The translations under genes and the position numbers were made by a program. Below, in pieces: positions 1 to 18,803 of a stretch of 25,405 bases of DNA. Origin of the DNA: a virus. The notes beneath the pieces are model-generated. The model was not told the DNA's origin. It did no database searches and saw only the letters and a list, made by a program, of their open reading frames with translations. Within the stretch, counting starts at the first letter, position 1, and the number at the start of each line of letters is the position of its first letter. The stretch covers positions 1 through 25,405 of the IMG/VR virus record IMGVR_UViG_3300021959_000350. One strand, 5' to 3'.

Positions 1-1131
1 TTCTCCATTTACTACAGCAAAACAAGCATTAGCTGTGTTATTACCCACTAAATCAGGGTTTTCACAAAGTTGAGTAATTAACCCATCAAAATTAGATATG
101 TCAATAGTAACTTCGTTGATAGTTCCCGAAGAATCTATTTCTATCCCACCACTATTAATAGGCATAGGGGTATAATTAATTCCCCCAAATTCTACATTAT
201 AAGTTACGTCTGTATTTAAATCTCCTCTAATTTCAGCAAAACGCATAGGGAAACCGTCCGGCCAGCTTCTACCAAACCCTTCTCCTCCCGGGTTGCCTTG
301 ATCGGTTGAAGGGTACCACTCTCCTGGGTAATAAATTGAAAATAAACGAACTAAAGGATTTTGAACAAAAGAATTTCTTTCTCTAATATAATTAGAGTTA
401 GCTATAGACGTAACATTAGTATTAGCCCCTTTTATTTGTTCTGAAAAAGCTTTAGCTTGAAAAGGAATAGACTCAGTATTTCCTTCATCAACTCGCACAA
501 CTACACTAGTTAAATTGGCATGTACCCAATTATCATATCCAATAGAGTAAGTAAATTCAGAATTAGAAGCAGAAACTGCAAAAGTATCTGCAATACTGCT
601 CAGAAGAAAATCATAAATACCACTTTCTTCCTGTCCCTTAATTCTTAAGTTATCTTGGGTATGCGTATCCCCAGAAGTAACTGCCCGAATAGGTTTAAAA
701 TCAAAACCAGTATCTCCTAAAGTTGTACTAGGATAGTTAATTAAAGTTTTATCAATTTGCCTATTATTAACAAAAACAGAAAAAGAATCTGAAGTTAAAT
801 TACTTCTACTTAAAACACCAAGAGGTAAAGAAAAGGTATTAGTAGTCCCATTAATTTGAAAAGAATTACCATTTACACTTAAAGAAGCACTATTAGTATA
901 TGTTGCTGCCTCAACGTTTGAGGAAATTCTATTAAAAATAGGAGAAACATTCTCTCCTTCAATAAATTCTTGATTAACATTAGCTACTTTGATTTTAATA
1001 TTAGAGTTAGCTTTATCCGTAGCAACTACTGTCCCAGTAGTACTAGTGGTTTCTGAGAGAATAGTATCTCCCTTATTGATAATGCTAGGATTGTCAATTG
1101 TTAAAATGTAATCGTAAGTGCGGGTAGTCAT
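1..1131 (-). CDS. gpL-like minor tail protein, 3' end beyond window
   Basis: This is a tail-tip protein, read here through 377 codons and open at the left edge. It is not among the longer complete frames because its stop lies outside the window. Residues 255-377 match the lambda gpL pattern: a start like NPLVRLFSIYYP, then FGGINYTPMPI, a Gly-rich turn, SNFDGLITQL and DLVG, corresponding to the gpL segment with YQPYPI, SNLYGMVTGM and SLVG. Known gpL proteins begin almost directly with this domain, so the first 250 residues are an extension. Residues 7-63 look like a small beta module with paired GDTI/GENV turns. Residues 93-125 (INGTTNTFSLP, then SFSVFVNNRQID) resemble a segment of the upstream gpM-like protein. 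The ATG overlaps the preceding stop codon (TAATG), implying coupled translation. The position after tape measure and gpM matches lambda order H-M-L. The gpL assignment is fairly secure; the role of the extension is unknown. Confidence 0.8.
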   Translation of the reverse strand, partial: MTTRTYDYILTIDNPSIINKGDTILSETTSTTGTVVATDKANSNIKIKVANVNQEFIEGENVSPIFNRISSNVEAATYTNSASLSVNGNSFQINGTTNTFSLPLGVLSRSNLTSDSFSVFVNNRQIDKTLINYPSTTLGDTGFDFKPIRAVTSGDTHTQDNLRIKGQEESGIYDFLLSSIADTFAVSASNSEFTYSIGYDNWVHANLTSVVVRVDEGNTESIPFQAKAFSEQIKGANTNVTSIANSNYIRERNSFVQNPLVRLFSIYYPGEWYPSTDQGNPGGEGFGRSWPDGFPMRFAEIRGDLNTDVTYNVEFGGINYTPMPINSGGIEIDSSGTINEVTIDISNFDGLITQLCENPDLVGNNTANACFAVVNGE

Positions 1132-2762
1132 TAATCATAAACCTCTTTTAGTTTAAAATTAACTGTATAATAGTTAGTTTGTAAACTAGTATTTGACGAG
1201 TCAGAAAAAACATGAGAAACCTGTAAAGAACCATCAAATCTTGCTTGTATTGTACCATTTTCATTGATGTGTGTCAAATCAAAAGTGAATGTCTCAAAAG
1301 ATCCGTTCCTTGCGATATAGAACTGCTCGATTGCGTGTTTTTCTACACCTGTAATATTTGTATAGGTTAAATCAAAATCACGCTTAGAACGGCGACTTCT
1401 TAATCTTCTTTTTTCATATCCGCCCTGTGATTCAAAGTTAATTACGTCAAATTCACGATTAGTGGAAAAACCTCGATCAGGTTTTCTGTCTTCCATAGAG
1501 GTAAATCTATCAAAGGTGTCAACGTCACTAGTAAAACGTCTAATAACCAAAACATCGTCAGATTGTAGAGGTGTGTGTATTCTTGTAGCGGCAACGACCG
1601 GAGTTTCAAAAGTACCTGTTCTAACAGGGCTATTATTAACAAACCTAAAAGAGTCTATAAAACCTTTTAAATGCTCTCTAGTATCGGCACTAGTTGTATT
1701 TATACGCCCTATCTCAAAAGCACCGGTAGGATTGATAGTGTAAGTACTACTAGCGTCAAACTGAACCACAGAGCCATTGACAAATAATGCAGTGTTTCCA
1801 GTTTCTTTGTTATGAGCAACTGCGACATGGGTAAAAGTGTCTGCGCTAATAGAGCCTCCCTGCACGTCTGCTACAACCGAACCGCTTTCTTTTACTAGCC
1901 ACTGCATTTTATTATTAGCCAATCTACTAAGTTTTACAAAATTATTATCATCAGTCCTATGAGAAAAAACTGTATTGGCTTGACTTGCATCTTCAAAACG
2001 AGCAAAACATTCTATGCAAAAACTACCTTCATACTTAAATTCTGCGCTATCTGCAAAGCTAATTAAATCATTTGTCCCATCAAAAGATGCAGCAGAATTT
2101 CCAAACTGTTTAGTGTCACTTAATACCGCTCCAGTAACTGTAGCAGCGCCGTGAGCTTTGGGACTTTCATCAGTAAAATTAGTCTCAAAATTTAAAAGTA
2201 GTGCAGTATCCTCAAAAGTTCCTATGCTAATGCCCGCATTTCCTAGATTAAGCGAAACATTTTGTGTTGTAACTGCTGGAGATGTGTTTGATGCGGGATG
2301 TACGTACTGAGTAGATGCCTGTTCTACACCAGAAACTGTGACTAATAATTGGTCTGTGCTATTTACATTTTCTTGAAAAGGAAGCGCAAAGTTTTGTGTA
2401 ACCCCATTAATAACATAAGTATTTGCTTGAACTACGGTAGCAGTGTTACTATATTCAATATATTTTACTGTTTGAGCTTTTCTAGAAGTTCTAAACCTAG
2501 CAGGTACAGTAATAATTTTTAAACTCAAAGAGTCCGCCGAAGGAGCTGTTACAAAAGTGATTGTAGCTCCAGAATTACTGACTGAATATGTCGAAGTAGC
2601 CTGTTCAATACCGTCTACAGTAACAACTACTTCTCCAACATGTTCAATAGTATGGGGATGTACGTTAAAGTTAGTGGCACTTCCTGTACTTGAAAAATTT
2701 ATTGTACTAATAGTATCAAAAGCAGTAGTAGTTATAGTTGCATCTGTAGGATAAGTAGCCAT
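1131..2762 (-). CDS. gpM-like minor tail protein with LamG lectin domain
   Basis: This 543-aa tail-tip protein appears to have three parts. Residues 20-165 hold two beta segments of adhesin type, each with a Val-rich strand ending in GIEQA or GVEQAS. Residues 186-385 form a LamG/concanavalin-like domain: an ALLLNFE opening strand, FGNSAASFDGTNDLISF, FTHVAVAHNKETGN, ALFVNGSVV and GFIDSFRFVNNS. Residues 425-543 match lambda gpM/DUF2460-type tail proteins: FESQGGYEKRRLRSRRSK, a central beta region with EKHAIEQFYIARNGSFETF, and VNFKLKEVYD. The lectin-like part probably contacts glycans on the host surface, while the C-terminal part anchors the protein at the tail tip. The ATG overlaps the tape-measure stop (TAATG), with GGGGGAA upstream as a weak ribosome site. 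Domain identities are read from motifs only; the sugar-binding role is inference. Confidence 0.82.
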   Translation of the reverse strand: MATYPTDATITTTAFDTISTINFSSTGSATNFNVHPHTIEHVGEVVVTVDGIEQATSTYSVSNSGATITFVTAPSADSLSLKIITVPARFRTSRKAQTVKYIEYSNTATVVQANTYVINGVTQNFALPFQENVNSTDQLLVTVSGVEQASTQYVHPASNTSPAVTTQNVSLNLGNAGISIGTFEDTALLLNFETNFTDESPKAHGAATVTGAVLSDTKQFGNSAASFDGTNDLISFADSAEFKYEGSFCIECFARFEDASQANTVFSHRTDDNNFVKLSRLANNKMQWLVKESGSVVADVQGGSISADTFTHVAVAHNKETGNTALFVNGSVVQFDASSTYTINPTGAFEIGRINTTSADTREHLKGFIDSFRFVNNSPVRTGTFETPVVAATRIHTPLQSDDVLVIRRFTSDVDTFDRFTSMEDRKPDRGFSTNREFDVINFESQGGYEKRRLRSRRSKRDFDLTYTNITGVEKHAIEQFYIARNGSFETFTFDLTHINENGTIQARFDGSLQVSHVFSDSSNTSLQTNYYTVNFKLKEVYD

Positions 2763-7749: not shown

Positions 7750-8091
7750 TTATTTCCTTGCTTTACGTTGTGCTTCGTAATGTTTGCTCGATTCTGCAAT
7801 AATAAATTGTAATAACTCAAAAGCATCTCGGTTACCTTCAATACCGTATAGCTCCATGATATCACCAAGACCTGCAAAGTCTTTACCTAACCATATTCCA
7901 TTCATCCCTTCTATTTTATCCGGCAATGCTTGAAAAAGTGTTACTGCGATTGCTGCCTCATATGACAAATCATTGAAAGTCATAGGCATTTCATCGGGGT
8001 TTGGTTCCCAACCCATCTGTTCACACATTAACAAGTAGTGTTCTTGGGTTATTCCCCCTGCTTGGAACTGGTGCTGGAGGAATTTTTCAAG
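7750..8091 (-). CDS. T portion of tail assembly chaperone GT (by -1 frameshift)
   Basis: This frame encodes the C-terminal 113 residues of a gpG-T type fusion, which normally coats or recruits the tape measure during tail assembly. The first ATG in the frame is at 8034, but it lacks a ribosome site and the frame is open upstream. A ribosome slipping back one base on A-AAA-AAC at 8091-8097 continues into it as LEKFLQHQFQAGG, ITQEHYLLMCEQMGWEPNPD. The fusion is then 143 + 113 = 256 aa. A Cys-Glu-Gln-Met-Gly-Trp-x-Pro stretch followed by a helical, acidic region is typical of T partners. The frame ends two bases before the tape measure ATG, as in lambda. I therefore treat the 94-aa version starting at 8034 as an artefact of looking for start codons. 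Confidence 0.87.
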   Translation of the reverse strand, partial: LEKFLQHQFQAGGITQEHYLLMCEQMGWEPNPDEMPMTFNDLSYEAAIAVTLFQALPDKIEGMNGIWLGKDFAGLGDIMELYGIEGNRDAFELLQFIIAESSKHYEAQRKARK

Positions 8092-8519
8092 TTTTTTACG
8101 TCATTTTCCTTTTTTGTAATAGAAAATTGTTCAAACTCATTCATAGTATCTGTGATAAACTGATCAAATACTGTAGAATTAGTAATTAAACTTAACGCTT
8201 CTTCTTTAGAATAGTCAATTGGCTCTTCTACGTCGTCTCCGCTGATATCAACAGGTAGTAGTAACGGAAGATGTTTAACCTTAAGACCTTTCCAGCCTTT
8301 AATTGCTCTTTCACAATAGGCGGCTAAAAACTTATCATTATCAATTTCTTCTTCTCTTTGTCGAGTACGTTTATTAAACTTAAAGGTTAGGCTCGCGTTG
8401 CGAATCTTCATTAAATCCTCTCTATTTAAATATACTAGACTAATAACAAATTCCTCAATATCTGGGAATTCAACGTCGACAACTGTTTCAGTTGCCATTA
8501 GGGATGCGATCTTACTCAT
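8049..8519 (-). CDS. tail assembly chaperone G
   Basis: This 156-aa protein sits between tail tube and tape measure, the gpG position. It has the usual character: small, Lys/Glu-rich, with a structured first part (EEFVISLVYLNREDLMKIRN, then FLAAYCERAIKGWKGLKVK) and a disordered Ser/Lys-rich end. About nine in ten ribosomes are expected to end here in known systems; a minority shift into the T frame at 8091-8097. The start has an excellent AAAGGAG site at 8529-8535, but the bases between it and the ATG are perfectly complementary to a C-rich loop upstream (see the regulatory element at 8520-8647). The function is inferred from position and the frameshift signal, since G proteins share little sequence. 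Confidence 0.87.
   Translation of the reverse strand: MSKIASLMATETVVDVEFPDIEEFVISLVYLNREDLMKIRNASLTFKFNKRTRQREEEIDNDKFLAAYCERAIKGWKGLKVKHLPLLLPVDISGDDVEEPIDYSKEEALSLITNSTVFDQFITDTMNEFEQFSITKKENDVKNLKNSSSTSSKQGE
8051..8115 (-). promoter_or_regulatory. programmed -1 ribosomal frameshift signal (G/GT)
   Basis: In transcript order there are three parts. An AAGGA Shine-Dalgarno-like element lies at 8107-8111, nine bases before the slip site. The heptamer A-AAA-AAC occupies 8091-8097, correctly phased on GTA-AAA-AAC. After a 7-base spacer, an 8-bp stem pairs 8076-8083 with 8051-8058 (one G.U pair) around a 17-base loop. The same three parts drive the E. coli dnaX frameshift. The -1 frame opens only after a TGA at 8101-8103 and the zero frame stops at 8049-8051, so the A-AAA-AAC heptamer lies inside the only useful window. 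A second heptamer, A-AAA-AAG, at 8109-8115 leads to that TGA after two codons. Confidence 0.88.
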
Positions 8520-8647
8520 TTTTCCCCTCTCCTTTCTATATAAAAAGGGTGTCCATCGATTTCAACTTGAGGTCAGCCGAGGGGAAAAGCTGAACACATT
8601 GTTAACACGATGAACACCCACATGAAATTTTATTTTAGTTACCCCTC
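8520..8647 (-). promoter_or_regulatory. structured leader with anti-ribosome-site loop before chaperone G
   Basis: The 142-base gap between tail tube and G genes is the longest non-coding stretch here. In minus-strand RNA, 8579-8588 reads UUUUCCCCUC. It is perfectly complementary over 10 bases to 8520-8529 (GAGGGGAAAA), which overlaps the last base of the AAAGGAG site and runs up to the G start codon. The same C-rich segment can instead pair with GAGGGG at 8642-8647, just after the tail tube stop. It sits in the loop of a 5-bp hairpin (8589-8593 with 8573-8577), which lies inside the larger stem of the adjoining terminator-like structure. The complementarity is directly visible; control of G translation is inference. 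Confidence 0.5.
8542..8619 (-). terminator. stem-loop with U-run after tail tube gene
   Basis: GGGTGTTCATCG (8608-8619) pairs with CGATGGACACCC (8547-8558) to form 12 pairs, followed by five U residues (8542-8546). The single non-Watson-Crick pair is G.U in the minus-strand RNA but would be C.A on the other strand, so the structure suits the transcribed strand. The GC-rich base plus the U-run resemble an intrinsic terminator. However, the 49-base enclosed region is long for one, so partial termination or a purely structural role is more likely than a complete stop. Confidence 0.55.
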
Positions 8648-8661
8648 TAATAACTAAATTG

Positions 8662-9963
8662 TTATGCTGCTTTAACAACAAATGTTACGTTAGCACCTGT
8701 ACCTTTTTGAGCAGTTGTTTCTTGCGCTAAGAACTCAGCGCTAATGCCAACAACATCTTCAATTGAGTGTGTTGGGAAACTAAACTGAGTAGCCTGCATA
8801 TCAATTGCGAAATAAGGAGCCGTAGCGCCACCAATTTTAAGGTTGGCTTGGGTTCCTTGAGCGATTGTAGTAGCAGTATTTGCAACAATGTTTCTTAAGA
8901 AAGCAGCAGAATTATCACTTGCTGTTGCGCCACTTCTTAGATACGCGCTAATTGACCCTGAAATTGTTTGCGCGCCTGTAAACTGCGTAATAGGTGAGTT
9001 AAGGCTTGAAAGTTCTTCGGGTGTTAAATATGTCATATTATTATTAACATCAAAAGTTAGTCCTGTAACAGGGAATGTATGACTTGCTGTATCTCCGCTT
9101 GTGGTATCAGTAATATCAATAGTTGATAGCCGGTTCTGAATGAATTCGGCACTAGTAGCAGCTCCTGCAACGTTATAAGAGTTCCAAGGATGATACTTAC
9201 TAGTATTTACTGTTGCACCATCAGTCTTGAAAATATCAATTGTAGACCCGCCAGCGACTGTAGTACCATTATTTAGAGTACCACCAAAAACGTTAATAGC
9301 AACGTCTCTTGGCGCTCCTGTAAGCTCTACAAGGTTGGTAGCAAAACCAGTCCAAGTAGTAGTAGCAATTCCGTCAATAGCGGCATCAATAGATGCTTGG
9401 TTAACAGCAGCATTAGCTAGTTGGTAAACAACGTTATCAACTTTCATATATAAATGTGCTTCTGTAGCGGTTGCAAAGTTTGGGTCACAAGCAGCAACGT
9501 TAGAGGTAGCTGCACGACCGAGATTTTCCCATTTAGCAATGGACGTATCTGCAGTGCCTTGCCACGCACTTTGCATTTGGGTTCCTGTGGCAGGGGCAGT
9601 TGCACAAAGCAATGCTTGCCATAAAAACCAGTCTGCAACAGGTGTAGCGTTACCATTTTCAAGTAAGTTAGTTGCAGCTGCCCCGTCAATTGAAGTGGCT
9701 CGTGTGGGTTTCAAATATGCCTGGAAGTTCCAATCAACTGGGTTAATAGCTGTATTGAACCTCTGTTGAGAACGATCAGGAGATGTTCCACTTTCGAGCG
9801 AAGTGATGTCTGTAGTTGCCGCTGATTGACTAAATGCATATCCCGCAAGTACTTCAACCTGCCAAGTATTGGCAGGGCTCATTGCGGTTGCGGCAGCGCC
9901 ACCATTGAGATCAACGGTGGAGTAGAAAATTTTTGTATTTCTTTGTAAGTTAAGCGATGCCAT
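8662..9963 (-). CDS. major tail tube protein
   Basis: This 433-aa protein fits a siphovirus tail tube subunit, stacked in rings around the tape measure. It starts MASLNLQRNTKIFYSTVD, a beta-rich opening common among marine phage tube proteins, and contains INPVDWNFQAYLKP (tube-type strand), FPVTGLTFDVNNNMTYLTPE and a final FSFPTHSIEDVVGISAEF strand pair. It is rich in Ala, Thr, Ser and Asn with few charged residues, as expected for a beta-barrel assembly protein. It is longer than lambda gpV (246 aa), and the central 110-300 stretch may be an added surface domain. AAGGAG precedes the ATG. Its position directly after the tail terminator gene and before G/GT matches lambda U-V-G-T-H order. A stem-loop follows the stop codon, which would favour high expression relative to downstream genes. 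Confidence 0.85.
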   Translation of the reverse strand: MASLNLQRNTKIFYSTVDLNGGAAATAMSPANTWQVEVLAGYAFSQSAATTDITSLESGTSPDRSQQRFNTAINPVDWNFQAYLKPTRATSIDGAAATNLLENGNATPVADWFLWQALLCATAPATGTQMQSAWQGTADTSIAKWENLGRAATSNVAACDPNFATATEAHLYMKVDNVVYQLANAAVNQASIDAAIDGIATTTWTGFATNLVELTGAPRDVAINVFGGTLNNGTTVAGGSTIDIFKTDGATVNTSKYHPWNSYNVAGAATSAEFIQNRLSTIDITDTTSGDTASHTFPVTGLTFDVNNNMTYLTPEELSSLNSPITQFTGAQTISGSISAYLRSGATASDNSAAFLRNIVANTATTIAQGTQANLKIGGATAPYFAIDMQATQFSFPTHSIEDVVGISAEFLAQETTAQKGTGANVTFVVKAA

Positions 9964-9977
9964 TTCTTAAAGCTCCT

Positions 9978-10430
9978 TTAATCTTCTATTTCATACCCGA
10001 TGTTTATAAAGACTTCTCCGAGACCGTATGGTTCGATAAGTCCCTCATCTGTAGAAATATTTGATATATTAAATTGTAGTATTCCTTTATCAGATTGACT
10101 TGATATGTTATATATAACATGTTCCACGTCGTCGATTAGGTTTTCTAACCCGTCCTGCGCCTCTTCTTGTTTTACATAACATCTAATAACTATAGGAAGA
10201 TTAGCTAAAGTAAATCCCTGAGTCTGATAATCTCTGGTTTCTGCTCCTGCACTTAAATATAAGGCAGGAAAGTCGTTTACTTCATCAATAAATTTTAGTT
10301 GCCTAAAAACATTATTTGCTAAATTAAAGTTATAAGTGTAAGAGGCACCAAAAGTTGAAGAGTCACCATTAATTTTTTTTAATTCTGTGACAAGGAAATT
10401 TACAATATCTCTTCTTCGACTGTTTGCCAT
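9978..10430 (-). CDS. tail terminator (gpU-like) protein
   Basis: This 150-aa protein lies immediately before the tail tube gene, where tail terminator proteins that cap the tube and join it to the head are normally encoded. It starts with a basic helix (NSRRRDIVNFLVTELKKING), continues through a beta segment with FPALYLSAGAETRDY, then VIRCYVKQEE and a helix GLENLIDDVEHVIYNI, and ends in IGYEIED. This alpha-beta layout, with a helix of the LENLIDDVE type followed by C-terminal strands, is typical of gpU/minor capsid completion families. The ribosome site is weak (AGGGA, 14 bases before the ATG). A promoter-like sequence lies just upstream at 10457-10485. Function is from position and general fold pattern; no diagnostic motif exists. 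Confidence 0.65.
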   Translation of the reverse strand: MANSRRRDIVNFLVTELKKINGDSSTFGASYTYNFNLANNVFRQLKFIDEVNDFPALYLSAGAETRDYQTQGFTLANLPIVIRCYVKQEEAQDGLENLIDDVEHVIYNISSQSDKGILQFNISNISTDEGLIEPYGLGEVFINIGYEIED

Positions 10431-10517: not shown

Positions 10518-11774
10518 TTAAAAACCTTTTAAAACATTAAATTGTCTTCCAACTCTTCGTTGGGTTATGTTTCTAATACTTCCTTCAATAGTTTCATTGG
10601 GGTTTCTTGAAGTATCTTGGTGTACTTGATATATAGGATTGTAATAGTATCTAATTAAGCTACCTCTAACCTGAGTTATAACACTTCTAACAAAGCGTCC
10701 ACTTCTATTTGTTAGTATTTCATCGCTCAGAGGAGGTCCTTGTAAGGGTCCTTTAGGCATTCTCGCAAATAATGATCTTTGAACTGCTGCAGTGAGTTGA
10801 GAAGAAGAAATAGTAGCTTGCATCTCCTTCTTTTTTCTTGGGCCTCCCTTGCGTGAACCTTTAATTTTACCTTTTGTCATTGGAATACTAGCGCCTGATG
10901 GGTATTCCATTATCATATCAAAATCAATACCGGATGCTTGATTGGTTACTTTTCGTCTACCTGGTAAAGTAGCTAGTGCTTTTTCAAACTCTTTTGCTGT
11001 CTCAACAGTTATTGCAGGTCCTGCATCTAATATTGATTTTATTAATTGTCTCTCAAAAGATTCGCTTAATTTTAAAACAATGGCCGCAGGCTTAGTTAAT
11101 TCTGTAACAAAAGGAGGAGAAGTAAATTTGTTTAAAGGAAATGCTATATTTATTACATCTACTGCAGTAACTTTGTTACCCCCACTTTTTTGAACTTTAG
11201 AAATCTGTAAAACTCTTGCTTTACGATAAAACTGCATAAATAAATCGGGGTCATTTTCTTTAATTAAGTTAAAAAATCCACCAGCCCCTCCTAAAGCGGT
11301 TCTAGCAGCTTTTAAGATTCCTTGTTTATCCTCTATGTCTACTCCTGGGTCTGCTGTTTGAGCTGCTCTTTTTATAGAATCTGTTAAAGATAATGAACCT
11401 ACTTGTTGTCCTCCTTCAATAGCAAAAGGAGAAACTTGTCCAATAGTAGCACCACCTTTTCCTCCTCGGGTTGCTTTTAGCTCTGTTTCTGTTATTTCTT
11501 CTAGCCCAAGAGCTGCAGCTAAAGGTGCAGATATTTCTTCTGCGTTAATCTCAAAATCTGGAACTAGACGGGCGCTACCACCTCTAACTGTTGCTTTATA
11601 AAATCTACCTATTGATTGTTCTAAAGCAGTTTGACTAATTTTTCTGGTTGCTTTTCCGCCAAGAAGAGGTTTCCCTCCTTTTTTAACTCCACGTAAAAAA
11701 TCAGCATAATTATCTAGTAACTCTGGTTCTGTAATTCTTACATTAAATGCTGTAATCCCTGCAGGAGGTGCCAT
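10518..11774 (-). CDS. neck-region structural protein, function unknown (gpZ/gp10 position)
   Basis: I do not recognise this 418-aa protein by sequence. It lies between the gp6-like connector and the tail terminator, the place of lambda gpZ or HK97 gp10, which complete the neck. It is basic, with a Lys/Arg cluster near residues 300-317 (KGKIKGSRKGGPRKKKE) and an Arg-rich C-terminus (SIRNITQRRVGRQFNVLK). The segment LSDEILTNRSGRFVRSVITQ at about 350-370 suggests a conserved contact surface. Known gpZ/gp10 proteins are around 110-190 aa, so this one is two to three times the usual size; the N-terminal 250 residues would be additional. It starts by TAATG overlap with the connector gene, so translation is probably coupled. 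A minor virion protein is likely; the specific role is a guess from position. Confidence 0.55.
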   Translation of the reverse strand: MAPPAGITAFNVRITEPELLDNYADFLRGVKKGGKPLLGGKATRKISQTALEQSIGRFYKATVRGGSARLVPDFEINAEEISAPLAAALGLEEITETELKATRGGKGGATIGQVSPFAIEGGQQVGSLSLTDSIKRAAQTADPGVDIEDKQGILKAARTALGGAGGFFNLIKENDPDLFMQFYRKARVLQISKVQKSGGNKVTAVDVINIAFPLNKFTSPPFVTELTKPAAIVLKLSESFERQLIKSILDAGPAITVETAKEFEKALATLPGRRKVTNQASGIDFDMIMEYPSGASIPMTKGKIKGSRKGGPRKKKEMQATISSSQLTAAVQRSLFARMPKGPLQGPPLSDEILTNRSGRFVRSVITQVRGSLIRYYYNPIYQVHQDTSRNPNETIEGSIRNITQRRVGRQFNVLKGF

Positions 11775-13087
11775 TATTCAATTATCCTATATAAATCTAG
11801 AACTCTTTTAATATGGGGCGGGAAGTTTGCAGCAAGAGCAGGTCTAGTTACCGACTCTCCTGCAAGAGCGAAACCAGAACGGTCTTGCTCCTCTTTGTGT
11901 AATAGCTTTATATAATCTAGTGTCGCTAATTTTAAATCTTGTGGCACATTACCCGACTCATACCCCGCACGATAATTAACACGAATAGCTTGGGGAAAGT
12001 TTTGAAAAGCTTTTGGTCCTTGTAAAGTTAGTTTTTGATAACCTGCACCAGAACCAGTATTACGACTAATTTCTCCTGTGTCCTTTTTAAATACAAATTC
12101 TTCTTGAGAAGCATGGGTATCATTAACATCTACTGCCGCATTAGCACCCTCAAAGTGGAGTAGTAGTTTAGTTTCATCGTCTGTTAAATGTTGATACTCA
12201 GGAGTGTCAAAAGCATCTGTATAGTGTGCTGATTTAGAAATTCGTAGTTCGTCCATATATCCTGTAAAATGGGCAGGAGTAGTATTACCAGATTTTGCAA
12301 TAAGCAATTCGCCACTAAAATTTGGAGCATCAACTGTTTTAGCAATTGTAGCAGTACTACCAATCTGACTTCCATCTCTAAATAATTTAAGAGAAGTTCC
12401 GCTTTTACTTACTGCAAGATGATGAAAAGTGTTAGCTGTATAGCCACTGGTAGCGGCGTGTGCTACATTCATAACTTCAGTACCAGCATCTACGACTCTA
12501 AACTGTAACCCTTCTACTGCATTATATCTAAATTGCCAAAAATCGTTAGCATCTTGATATTGTTCCACTAACACTTGTGATGCAGAAAAACTAGAAAATC
12601 TAGCTTGTAAATCAATAGTAAAATCTTCTGTATCAAACCACCAATCATCACCATTAGATGCTGATAGATAATCTCCATTTCCGTCAAAATATACGGAAGA
12701 TTGTCCAAACTTTTTAACTCTTGTTGTAATATGTGTGTCCCCATTTGTTGTTATGGTGTGGTTGTCCGAATCTTGATCCACCAAAAGCCCGTCCGCTGCA
12801 GGGGGGTTTAAACTTTCATACCTTGTTCCATTATATTCAAAAACTGAATGCACATTTGCAAGAGGTAAACGAGAGGCAAAAACTGAACTGTAACCACCAT
12901 CAAAAGTTTCTGAGTAGTTATTTGCCAGTACCTCTCGTTCAATATAGTGTTCTACCACACCACAAGCATAATTAATTACATTAGCTAACCTACCATCATG
13001 GGTAGTGCTATTAATACTTAGATAGTCTTTAGTTTCTACTAATGTAACATATGGATATTTACCTAAATTACTTTCTGTGATAGCCAC
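11774..13087 (-). CDS. gp6-like head-tail connector with inserted LamG domain
   Basis: This 437-aa protein has connector halves at both ends. Residues 1-85 (VTLVETKDYLSI, DGRLANVINYACGVVEHYIE, LPLANVHSV) match the helical N-terminus of HK97 gp6-type connectors, and residues 352-437 (KLTLQG, IRVNYRAGYE, VPQDLKLATLDYIKLLHKE) match their end. Together they give the usual length of about 170-190 aa. Between them lies a LamG-like domain, about residues 107-300: KFGQSSVYFDGNGDYLSAS, FTIDLQARF, HHLAVSKSGTSLKLFRDG, GYMDELRISKSAHYT. The strand LLLHFEGANAAVD, which normally opens such domains, is found after it at 308-320. Connector subunits form a ring below the portal; the insert would project outward. 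The start is GTG, with AAGGAG eight bases before it. The gp6 and LamG assignments are solid by motif; surface display is inference. Confidence 0.82.
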   Translation of the reverse strand: MAITESNLGKYPYVTLVETKDYLSINSTTHDGRLANVINYACGVVEHYIEREVLANNYSETFDGGYSSVFASRLPLANVHSVFEYNGTRYESLNPPAADGLLVDQDSDNHTITTNGDTHITTRVKKFGQSSVYFDGNGDYLSASNGDDWWFDTEDFTIDLQARFSSFSASQVLVEQYQDANDFWQFRYNAVEGLQFRVVDAGTEVMNVAHAATSGYTANTFHHLAVSKSGTSLKLFRDGSQIGSTATIAKTVDAPNFSGELLIAKSGNTTPAHFTGYMDELRISKSAHYTDAFDTPEYQHLTDDETKLLLHFEGANAAVDVNDTHASQEEFVFKKDTGEISRNTGSGAGYQKLTLQGPKAFQNFPQAIRVNYRAGYESGNVPQDLKLATLDYIKLLHKEEQDRSGFALAGESVTRPALAANFPPHIKRVLDLYRIIE

Positions 13088-13378: not shown

Positions 13379-13396
13379 TTATTTTCTCCTTTTACT

Positions 13397-13432
13397 AGAA
13401 AGGGGAGGCAGATAAGAACACCTACCTCCCCT
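13397..13432 (-). terminator. stem-loop after major capsid gene
   Basis: In minus-strand RNA, AGGGGAGGUAG (13422-13432) pairs with CUGCCUCCCCU (13401-13411) over 11 bp, ten Watson-Crick pairs and one G.U, around a 10-base loop. It is followed by UUCU. The wobble pairs only in the minus-strand transcript. The GC-rich stem lies about 30 bases after the capsid stop codon. The U-run is short, so partial termination with read-through into the neck genes is expected. This is a common way to make capsid protein in excess. Confidence 0.72.
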
Positions 13433-13464
13433 GGGGTATAACTAAGTATGTTACCTAGTAAGTA

Positions 13465-14865
13465 TTAACCAGCTTCAATTAATGATGCATATGCGAAGTT
13501 TGTTGCATCAAGAGCAGCGTTACTGTTAGAGCTAAGTGCTTTGAAATCAAAGCGGGTGCTCATGTACATTGCTGTAACCTGCTGGCGTGGTTCATACTCG
13601 CTCTCAATCTCCATGCCTCGGCGTTCCCCGATGAGGAATCCTGGCTTGTAGACTAGAACACCGAGTTCGTTTCCGGTAGAACCTACATTATCCATGAACT
13701 CAGAGATAACAATTGGAATACCATAAATGGCACCTACTGCACCTGTGAGATACGTGGCATTTGGTCCGAACTTATCGACAGTGCGGAAGTCAGAGAAGCT
13801 AACTAGCTCGTTGTAGCCTTCAACAGAAGTTACGTAAACTAGGTGATCTCCAAGCTGTAGACCATACTTACCCATCTTCGCACGGGCAGAGGCAATGTCT
13901 GAAGCATCAGCTTTGTCGTTTCCACTACCTGTAGTGGTTCTTAGACCAGAAATATCGTCGGCAAGAGTAACAAGACCTTTAATTACTGACGCATAACCTG
14001 TTCCTGCTGCGATAGCATTGGTTGGTGCTGCTGTAAACCCTGTAAGGGCGCCTGTTCCACGAAGGATTGCCTTGTCGATTGCGCGAGCAACACGGCGTGT
14101 AGCTGCACGACGAAGGAAGTCCATTAGGGGTAGAACTGTGTCTTCTTCTTCATCCTTGGCAAGGTGAGTTGTTGCCATGAACTTATGAGGTGTGAGTTCT
14201 ACTGCACTGATTGTGTTCTGGTTTGAAGTTGGAACGTTTGTTGCGTCTGCAATGCCTGTGGCAAAAGTGCCAGAAGCAAACTGAGCAACATCACCGTCAG
14301 TGTCTTCCTTAGCAACAGGAATTCTGAAAGTCTTTGCATCAACTTGAATTCTGTCGAACATAGGAGCAATAACGAGCTGCTGTTCCATTTCTTCGTATAC
14401 ATTAGATGAGAAATTTGAAAGGAACTGATCAACAGCTGTGACCGCCTTAATTTTCTGACCCATCTTAGTGTCGAAGGGGTCGCGACGGCCTAGGGCCTGG
14501 GAAAGCATATATGCGTTCGCCATTTCCTTCTCGGAGAACTGCTCTCTGCTTGTATGAGAAGTTTCCTGATAGACCATCTTGGACTGTGATAGAGCAGAAA
14601 TTTGCTCTTCGTACTTTTTCATTTGAGCCTTAAGTTCAGCAACCTGCTCTGTTTCAACAGGGGTGTACTCTGAACCTTTTTTGTCCTGGGCATCAGCCTC
14701 AGTTAGAATTGCCTCACCAGTCTTTTCAACAAGCTCGGCAACTCGTGGCTCGGAAACCTGAGCAGGGGCACTCTTTACTTCAACTGCGGGTGCAGCTGGA
14801 GCAGGTGTTTCTGTCTCGGCTTCGGTTTTAACAACGATTGGATCGCCAACGTCTTGTGTCGCCAT
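13465..14865 (-). CDS. major capsid protein from internal start (nested product)
   Basis: The internal ATG, codon 539 of the fusion frame, has AAAGGAG nine bases upstream. It would give a 466-aa protein beginning MATQDVGDPIVVKTEAE. That length fits an HK97-type capsid precursor with an N-terminal delta region of about 120 residues. Base composition changes at this point: the capsid segment is clearly richer in G+C than the codons before it, as if it had been tuned for high expression or joined from another source. Capsids need hundreds of copies of this protein and far fewer protease molecules, so a separate start makes sense. Direct evidence is the ribosome site and composition; use of the start is inferred. 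Confidence 0.65.
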   Translation of the reverse strand: MATQDVGDPIVVKTEAETETPAPAAPAVEVKSAPAQVSEPRVAELVEKTGEAILTEADAQDKKGSEYTPVETEQVAELKAQMKKYEEQISALSQSKMVYQETSHTSREQFSEKEMANAYMLSQALGRRDPFDTKMGQKIKAVTAVDQFLSNFSSNVYEEMEQQLVIAPMFDRIQVDAKTFRIPVAKEDTDGDVAQFASGTFATGIADATNVPTSNQNTISAVELTPHKFMATTHLAKDEEEDTVLPLMDFLRRAATRRVARAIDKAILRGTGALTGFTAAPTNAIAAGTGYASVIKGLVTLADDISGLRTTTGSGNDKADASDIASARAKMGKYGLQLGDHLVYVTSVEGYNELVSFSDFRTVDKFGPNATYLTGAVGAIYGIPIVISEFMDNVGSTGNELGVLVYKPGFLIGERRGMEIESEYEPRQQVTAMYMSTRFDFKALSSNSNAALDATNFAYASLIEAG

Positions 14866-17756: not shown

Positions 17757-18122
17757 TTAATTCTTCTCCTTTTGAATTTCTACCCAATTTTTTACTTTCT
17801 TTACCACGGAATTATCATATCGTTGTCCAAATATATTGTGTAATCTTTCGTGGTGTTGTTTACACAGAGTGAGAGCATTATCATTAGATAGCTCCCAGAA
17901 ATAGTCTTTTTCAAACTGTTCTCTATAAATATTTATTTCTTCTACAGTGGTTATTTCGTCTATATTATTTTTTGCACACCAAGAATTAAATAACTCAGAA
18001 ACACTATAAAGATGATGAAATTCTAATTTATCTGTAGAAGCACAAATATAACAATTATCTGTTTTTTGATATCTCTTCTTTAAGTAATCTCTAATATATT
18101 TTACAGGAAATCTTTTTAGCAT
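17757..18122 (-). CDS. HNH endonuclease
   Basis: This 121-aa protein has the features of a zinc-supported HNH nuclease: CYIC at 24-27, EFHHL at 34-38 (catalytic His near 36-37), then LSNDNALTLCKQHHERLH at 78-95, with Asn82, Cys87 and His91/His95. The two Cys-x-x-Cys/His groups would bind a structural zinc ion. HNH proteins next to terminase in HK97-like phages assist DNA cleavage during packaging, so this could be a packaging partner. It could also be a homing-type nuclease, since it is embedded between terminase and portal with a second accessory gene. There is no clear ribosome site before its ATG, and the gap to the glycosyltransferase gene is 12 bases. The family is certain; the role is not. 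Confidence 0.88.
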   Translation of the reverse strand: MLKRFPVKYIRDYLKKRYQKTDNCYICASTDKLEFHHLYSVSELFNSWCAKNNIDEITTVEEINIYREQFEKDYFWELSNDNALTLCKQHHERLHNIFGQRYDNSVVKKVKNWVEIQKEKN

Positions 18123-18134
18123 ACCAGATAAATT

Positions 18135-18803
18135 TTAATTATTTTGAAAACTATGAAGATTTTGAAAATCTTTTAGTACTTTCCACCGTAATTCTTTGTG
18201 ATTTTTATGTGCATTTAGTCCCACATCTTTTTCCGGTAACAATTCTACTTCAGTTGAAATAGTTTTGTGTTTAGTCTTATAAAAATGAGACATAGACAAA
18301 GACACTAATATGTCATCACCTCTTTTTATAGTTCCCCAAGGTTTTATGTACTCATCAAAAACACTTTTTAAACTATCATTGTTTACTGCAACACAAGAAC
18401 CTACAGCTATGTCCACATCTTTATCTACACACCACACATCTTTTAACTCTTCGTAAGATTTTGCGTCTTCTAAGTTGTTTTTTCCATAAATACTTATCAA
18501 AGAAGTGGGGTATTTTTCAACTGTTTTTCTCAATTTTAATAAACAATGTTTGGTTGGTAAAATATCATCATCTAAAATGATAGAATATTTAAATTTAGAT
18601 TTATTTGCCCAATACCAGCGGTCAATACACCATTTATTTTGTTCATTATTATGAAATAATACTTTTGATACTTCAAGTTTTGTGTTATTTCCATTATTTA
18701 CCACTAATATCGGCATAAATCCTTGAAAAGTATATGCTATTCTTAAAACATTTTCTAATCTTTTGTAATTTAAAATTATTAACTGAGTGTCCCTTAAAAT
18801 CAT
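18135..18803 (-). CDS. GT-A type glycosyltransferase (GT64/GT2-like)
   Basis: This 222-aa protein resembles a small GT-A glycosyltransferase. It has an opening strand LIILNYKRLENV (8-19), VVNNG (34-38), an Asp-rich metal/nucleotide-sugar motif ILDDDIL (76-82), a VGSCVAVN strand (near 134-141) and TIKRGDDILVSLSMSHFYK with an acidic pair of the type used near the catalytic centre. The spacing recalls the exostosin-type GT64 group. The enzyme would transfer a sugar from an activated donor to virion, host-surface or other acceptors; none can be named. Its ATG overlaps the terminase stop (ATGA). The gene looks more AT-rich than the portal and capsid genes around it, which suggests later acquisition. 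The fold is likely; substrate and exact family are uncertain. Confidence 0.78.
   Translation of the reverse strand: MILRDTQLIILNYKRLENVLRIAYTFQGFMPILVVNNGNNTKLEVSKVLFHNNEQNKWCIDRWYWANKSKFKYSIILDDDILPTKHCLLKLRKTVEKYPTSLISIYGKNNLEDAKSYEELKDVWCVDKDVDIAVGSCVAVNNDSLKSVFDEYIKPWGTIKRGDDILVSLSMSHFYKTKHKTISTEVELLPEKDVGLNAHKNHKELRWKVLKDFQNLHSFQNN

Follow-up and report, generated by a model that had tools for sequence, protein, structure and literature searches.

Introduction

In the IncI-alpha (ColIb-P9) repY-repZ system, as in IncL/M, an RNA loop forms long-range pairs with a segment next to a ribosome site. In these systems, the nearby end of upstream translation alters the structures that are formed, and the downstream gene is controlled. 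Intrinsic terminators follow abundant phage structural genes, e.g. T7 Tphi after the capsid gene, and U-rich stretches 5' of ribosome sites have other known uses. The ratios of tube, chaperone and tape measure in phages such as the one described here are mostly ascribed to ribosome-site strength and to the G/GT frameshift. Differential decay within operons is common, and stem-loops between cistrons are known to act as decay terminators; those of puf and malEFG lie between the more and the less expressed genes of one operon (PMC5927463).

Here we describe what is apparently a new structured RNA family, unmatched in Rfam, which was seen in uncultured phages at 130 distinct junctions and always occupies the same place in the tail operon. 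If it acts as proposed below, it would add an RNA-structural layer to the setting of tail-protein ratios.

Tail-gene context of the junction

The window, by which we mean the whole stretch of DNA that was analysed, is a 25,405-base IMG/VR record. It carries the head-tail cassette of a tailed phage on the minus strand, with genes for terminase, portal, fused protease-capsid, tail terminator, tail tube, G chaperone, a downstream chaperone frame and tape measure. Among the 60 matches listed for each protein, the named relatives of the tube are T5-like major tail proteins (27-30% identity), and those of G are likewise T5-like (33-36% identity). The gap from the tube stop to the G start measures 142 nt in the window and is taken up by the element (minus strand, 8661-8520), whose parts are collected in Table 1.

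Several observations were made elsewhere in the cassette. A slippery heptamer, A AAA AAC, lies near the end of G (8091-8097, minus strand) and leads in the -1 frame into a 94-aa frame (8034-7750); together these are a G/GT-type programmed frameshift. AAAAAAC also stands at the end of G in many relatives, and in one of them (L066:2047-2823) G and the downstream chaperone frame make up one continuous 259-aa ORF, as if the frameshift were unneeded. Laminin-G-like lectin domains (Pfam) were identified within a head-completion protein (11774-13087, minus strand) and a tail protein (1131-2762, minus strand). Between portal and terminase (17757-18803, minus strand) there are two genes, of 121 and 222 aa, that have no Pfam match; the smaller one has, by eye, the look of an HNH nuclease.

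A 14-pair hairpin (AGGGGAGGUAGGU... / ...CUGCCUCCCCU; 13380-13466, minus strand) spans the gap 3' of the fused protease-capsid gene. Its fold has a z of -3.7, and 0 of 200 shuffles were equally stable. A strong intercistronic RNA structure is thus found after both capsid and tube, i.e. after the two genes expected to be the most abundantly expressed.

Table 1. Coordinates of the junction element and its flanking genes in the window
Feature	Position	Strand	Basis
Upstream cistron, gene for the tail tube (major tail protein)	8662..9963	-	phrog_3575 major tail protein, E 8e-51
H1 hairpin	8634..8658	-	stem 8658-8651 / 8641-8634, loop 8650-8642; fold z -4.5
A1, GAGGGG inside the H1 loop, matching the P2 loop	8642..8647	-	B core complementary in 130/130; G-run and C-run lengths covary
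P1 stem, 5' strand	8608..8619	-	12/12 pairs changed on both sides, 97.7% of cells paired, 26 diverged representatives
P1b stem, 5' strand	8601..8605	-	pairs with 8566-8562; fold and columns changing together between clades (UA/AU, GC/AU)
P2 hairpin	8573..8593	-	stem 8593-8589 / 8577-8573 around the C-rich loop; 4/5 pairs changed on both sides, 79% of cells paired
B, C-rich loop UUUUCCCCUC	8579..8588	-	core CCCCUC = 8584-8579; 127/130 CCCCUC, 3/130 UCCCUC
P1b stem, 3' strand	8562..8566	-	fold and between-clade column changes
P1 stem, 3' strand	8547..8558	-	same alignment basis as the P1 5' strand
U5 run directly 3' of P1	8542..8546	-	at least 5 U among the first 8 nt in 99/130; 3 or fewer in 13/130
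A2, GAGGGGAAAA at the G ribosome site, complementary to B	8520..8529	-	GAGGGG at 87/130, GAGGG/AGGGGG at 111/130 G starts
G, tail assembly chaperone gene, downstream cistron	8049..8519	-	phrog_313 tail assembly chaperone, E 1e-13

Architecture of the element

In the window, the H1 stem starts 3 nt past the tube stop, and A1 (8647-8642) lies 14 bases past it. P1 consists of 12 pairs including one G-U (8619-8608 with 8558-8547) and encloses 49 nt with further folding; P1b is separated from it by an asymmetric internal loop. A preliminary description of this junction had pointed to a perfect 10-base complement between the C-rich loop and the G ribosome site (8588-8579, UUUUCCCCUC, against 8529-8520, GAGGGGAAAA), to a six-base match just past the tube stop (8647-8642, GAGGGG), and to a small hairpin that holds the loop and is nested in the 12-pair P1 with its one G-U, followed by U5. 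All of these features can be read directly on the sequence, and the coordinates given for them were correct.

When both strands of the window are searched, GAGGGGAAAA is found twice, exactly at 8588-8579 and 8529-8520, where 0.04 occurrences are expected; two were found in 0 of 100 shuffles. The triple pattern GAGGGG-CCCCUC-GAGGGG at these spacings is present once in the window and in none of 100 shuffles, and CCCCTC has a single occurrence on the coding strand. Folding of 8510-8670, which had been proposed as a check, gave a mixed picture: taken as one nested fold, the whole stretch is unremarkable (z -1.5; 15 of 200 shuffles were equally stable) and its C-rich loop stays unpaired, nested folding being unable to display loop-loop contacts, whereas P1-P2 folded by itself (z -4.9) and H1 alone (z -4.5) stood out.

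Relatives of the junction

Relatives were gathered by IMG/VR searches with the G and tube proteins, plus one pattern-based scan of 84,980 species genomes. They gave 130 distinct tube-to-G junctions (collected as 69 + 22 + 19 + 16 + 4), which are a sample, as three locus searches kept the best 80 of 137, the best 80 of 341 and the best 80 of 295. In the first set, 141 of 147 records (146 loci and the window) passed the filter for tube followed by G; from the later four sets, 3, 3, 12 and 7 loci without a recognised G, mostly at a contig edge, were set aside. Some comparisons were carried out on 91 or 126 of the 130 junctions, the tube tree on 68 representatives, and a set of 26 representatives was formed by taking one junction per cluster at 20% distance. 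The identity of G to the query set is as low as 44%. The pattern-based scan contributed a sole relative (L440), a short contig binned as SAR86, which gives a weak hint of the host.

A1 and B were located in each junction by a search for GAGGG and CCCTC, so that five letters of the six-base core were set by the search itself. All 130 junctions have GAGGG past the tube stop and CCCUC further down, with a P1 helix around CCCUC. The A1 core lies 8-26 nt past the tube stop, a distance that fits an effect of upstream translation, and the stretch from A1 to P1 measures 14-30 nt. P1 varies from 9 to 15 pairs (13 pairs in 73/130) and ends 18-36 nt 5' of the start codon in 128 junctions and 17 nt from it in the remaining two. 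Four contigs (L572-L575, L601, L602; e.g. IMGVR 3300046806_000035) carry an additional tube-like gene with 48-51% identity to the queries. These paralogues, which were among the loci set aside, are followed by a gene other than G, and no element was found after the tube.

Covariation of the stems and complementarity of the loops

Because choosing the best P1 per sequence favours pairing, the evidence for P1 was taken from alignment counts (Table 1). RNAalifold returned 16 pairs for 69 junctions in a plain MAFFT alignment, 15 of these pairs being changed on both sides. For P1b, 3 of 4 pairs were changed on both sides among the 26 representatives, with 59% of cells paired. The low paired shares of P2 and P1b (79% and 59%) are partly due to MAFFT misplacing these segments between clades. 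When the partner was slid by 1-3 columns, pairing dropped from 86% to 34-45%. The H1 arms form on average 6.81 bp, compared to 3.89 bp when permuted among 67 clusters, and 6.33 bp compared to 3.72 bp among 12 clusters; in both cases 0 of 10000 permutations were as high. In a simple test of the H1 helix adjoining the loop, at least 4 bp were found in 117/130 and at least 5 bp in 108/130 junctions. The 13/130 junctions that had fewer than 4 bp beside the loop in this test were counted against the explanation that we prefer below. Altogether, these patterns of sequence change speak for a genuine RNA element under selection where tube meets G, with H1 and P1/P1b/P2 as its conserved structures.

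The six-base cores of A1 and B are exactly complementary in all 130 junctions (127 GAGGGG/CCCCUC and 3 GAGGGA/UCCCUC), five of the letters being search anchors. In the three exceptional junctions (L478, L514, L551) the core is altered on both sides; either one G and one C were lost together or, if these are substitutions, G-C became A-U. By parsimony on the tube tree, this coupled change corresponds to two events, with nearby supports of 0.73-0.91, and its being seen in 3 junctions only was, like these supports, counted against the explanation preferred below. A second line of evidence comes from run lengths. The G-run of A1 is as long as the C-run of B in 102/130 junctions, compared to 42% when permuted. 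Among 67 clusters the match was 0.72 vs 0.40 and among 26 clusters 0.65 vs 0.37 (p 0.0014); among the 12 broadest clusters it was 0.58 vs 0.44 (p 0.24) and thus not significant. For the complementarity of the flanks, 0, 8 and 2033 of 10000 permutations were as high at 67, 26 and 12 clusters, respectively, the last of which is not significant. A kissing loop between H1 and P2 is well supported by these comparisons as a whole, the deepest clusters alone being no proof. The six-base match, which the preliminary description had treated as a competitor, is by the same comparisons the conserved pairing.

The ribosome site of G

As a control for the motifs at G, we used 367 mechanically called ORF starts (at least 100 aa, ATG) from the same loci, with junction-internal starts excluded. 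GAGGGG, frequent at G starts (87/130), was found at 1/367 of these, and GAGGG or AGGGGG (111/130 at G) at 10/367. Conversely, AGGAG, GGAGG or AAGGA occurred at 163/367 other starts and at 14/130 G starts. This enrichment marks the ribosome site of G as an unusual one that has been maintained, which favours control of translation. A CsrA-like site in the G-runs was considered and rejected, since A1 of the window is followed by U and no GGA is present.

The pairing of the ribosome site with the C-rich loop behaved differently from the loop-loop pairing. The G-run of A2 and the C-run of B were equally long in 0.27 of the junctions vs 0.29 when permuted (n=110), i.e. no covariation was detected, and A2-B complementarity was no better than permuted across junctions. 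Moreover, 19/130 junctions have neither GAGGG nor AGGGGG at the G site and nevertheless keep the complementary loops (e.g. L432, L421/L443, the L393 group and L478/L551), so a switch cannot be the general function. The presence of the match changes 6 times on the 68-tip tube tree; judged across these lineages, the 10-base ribosome-site match is lineage-dependent. The window is an exception in that its ribosome-site match is longer (10 bases, vs 6 from the core) and its duplex stronger (-16.4 vs -12.4 kcal/mol for the upstream pairing). By duplex energy, which takes no account of loop geometry, the upstream pairing is the stronger one in 107/130 junctions and the weaker one in 17/130, and B:A2 beats the duplex of A2 with the 16S tail in 124/130. 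We therefore rejected the idea that pairing with the ribosome site is what defines the element, as this pairing is absent from 19/130 junctions and shows no covariation.

These results divide the claims that had been made for the C-rich loop and its two complementary partners. Both partners proved to be enriched or kept (130/130 for the upstream one; 111/130 vs 10/367 for the ribosome site), the ribosome-site pairing not being constant. Covarying pairs, which had been suggested as a check in relatives, were found for P1 (12/12 pairs) and, as coordinated changes, between the loops, with none for the loop against the ribosome site. The proposal would have been refuted if relatives lacked the complementary segments or changed them without compensation: the loop-loop pairing is there in 130/130, with coupled changes, and the ribosome-site match is absent in 19/130. 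That the element tunes the tube-to-chaperone ratio, as was first proposed, is plausible.

Specificity and novelty

A model built from 31 sequences of one clade, with the clade of the window left out (R1), recovered the element of the window at E 0.0077 in 512 kb, and its 96 matches in 89 sources were all at the element (either strand). A second model (R2) was built from the 26 representatives; its match in the window (E 1e-11) is by construction, because one of the 26 (L002) has an identical junction. A triple-motif scan of all viral contigs gave at least 80 loci, 79 of which served to try out R2 on loci found without a protein query; as the scan and its scrambled control both yielded lower bounds, it has no enrichment value by itself. 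Among these 79 loci, 18 matched R2, all 18 between tube and G, and several of the contigs were already known. On 14 whole contigs (38-117 kb), R2 gave one strong match each, three of them with a match on the opposite strand as well, and one weak match elsewhere (E 0.06).

Rfam returned nothing up to E 1 for positions 8000-10000 of the window. In nine relatives its one match was a sub-threshold Moco match (24.4 bits, gathering 36), which lies well away from the element. A blastn search of three junctions against the INPHARED phage records found nothing. Nor was a named element at the tube/G position found in the literature covered (titles and openings of abstracts, preprints and most subscription journals excepted), which included portions of PMC2864571, on candidate RNAs of 2010, and of PMC6316719, on SPP1.

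Possible mechanisms

The explanation that we tentatively place first is that a cis-acting kissing-loop RNA fills the tube-to-G junction and tunes the output of G relative to that of the tube. It would be an intercistronic control element that separates tube expression from G expression, and in most lineages it would have the covering of the ribosome site as a further arm. While the element is locked, H1 would hold the C-rich loop, and P1 with the U run would form a barrier between the highly and the less expressed cistron. As the H1 stem of the window begins so close to the tube stop, a terminating ribosome should cover its 5' strand; H1 would then be opened and the C-rich loop set free. Because the G ribosome site has the same GAGGG(G) sequence, the freed loop could cover it in most lineages, that of the window included. 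Lineages without a matching ribosome site would have the barrier function only. We regard as unlikely the full three-segment switch, in which ribosomes finishing the tube would open H1, the freed C-rich loop would cover the G site and heavy tube synthesis would restrain the chaperone. If this switch were true, the ratio of tail parts would be kept by RNA alone, via ribosome traffic on the tube gene. Counted against the explanation placed first is that few nucleotides separate P1 from the ribosome site, a short linker if the far loop is to be reached. A leader ORF between A1 and P1 was rejected, as the ATG seen in the clade of the window is not kept from clade to clade.

The main rival is a static barrier that closes the tube message at its 3' end, where kissing-locked P1 and the U-run would serve as a leaky intrinsic terminator and/or as a stop to 3'-5' decay, so that tube mRNA would exceed G mRNA without any switching. 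We consider it possible, if on the doubtful side. It explains the lineages in which complementary loops are retained where the ribosome-site match is gone, the capsid gene of the window also has a strong hairpin after it, and decay terminators and differential operon decay are known precedents (PMC5927463). The stretch after P1 is U-rich (mean 5.4 of 8, vs 28.7% U in the junctions; at least 5 of 8 in 99/130). However, the 13/130 junctions with 3 U or fewer in these 8 nt imply that termination is not universal, and a universal terminator was rejected because some junctions are without a U-run. Compared to a canonical terminator, the window has a GC-rich stem with a direct U-run, but P1 encloses 49 nt that fold further instead of a short apical loop, and the site was absent from a terminator scan with a pattern limited to loops of 3-8. 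U-rich stretches before ribosome sites are known in other roles, too. Finally, a simple hairpin would be enough for a static barrier, which needs no invariant loop pair and leaves the excess of GAGGG(G) at G starts unexplained.

The kissing-loop element could also be read as a site bound by some protein or small molecule (e.g. the tube protein, G or a host factor) that would stabilise or open the fold and give feedback on G. The compact architecture with a tertiary contact would suit this, as would internal-loop sequences conserved within clades, such as CUUGC.../...AGCAGAU and GUUAACAA/GUUGA; these sequences vary between clades, however, and no Rfam riboswitch matches near the element, which makes this reading improbable. 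It is more improbable still that the C-rich hairpin is released as a small RNA derived from a 3' end and acts in trans on G-rich ribosome sites: a C-rich loop on a hairpin with a U-run after it in many members would be expected of such an RNA, but two enriched complementary partners lie in cis and some members lack the U-run. Chance complementarity without function hardly deserves credit. The modest z of -1.5 for the whole region would be in line with it, and the covariation of P1, the triple-motif shuffles, the loop complementarity and the run-length tests speak against it with respect to both structure and loop pairing.

Comparison with known systems

The tail module resembles that of T5-like phages (Demerecviridae) in its tube (27-30% identity) and chaperone (33-36%), among the matches listed. 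In contrast to the junction described here, Erwinia phage KEY has a minor tail protein gene between tube and chaperone and no such gap, and Vibrio phage 70E38.1 would have the same layout as KEY if its unnamed 1469-2620 gene is the tube. The R2 search of the 70E38.1 locus, the only Demerecviridae locus covered, found nothing. A T5-type ancestor of the element was rejected, as the gene order differs and the one such locus searched had no R2 match.

Like T7 Tphi, the junction presents a stem and then a U-run at a step-down point, with at least 5 U of 8 in 99/130. It differs in that P1 in the window encloses 49 nt with a further fold, that a complementary hairpin lies upstream and that the U-run is not universal. 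The likeness to puf and malEFG (PMC5927463) is that of a structure separating two genes of one operon that differ in expression, as tube and G are proposed to do; the junction adds loops whose complementarity is conserved and, in many cases, a ribosome site that is complementary as well.

A parallel in design is repY-repZ, which shares with the junction a long-range loop pairing, a segment beside a ribosome site and a downstream gene, whose control is proposed here. As in a repZ-type pseudoknot switch, the long-range loop pairing is backed by covariation, which is not significant among the 12 broadest clusters. A counterpart of the alternative pairing at the downstream ribosome site would be the complementary site of 111/130 junctions, which is without covariation. 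The two systems are not related by genes, and they differ in that the upstream cistron is a structural protein at the junction and a leader peptide in repY-repZ, and in that two hairpin loops would kiss at the junction, whereas in repY-repZ a loop pairs with a tail.
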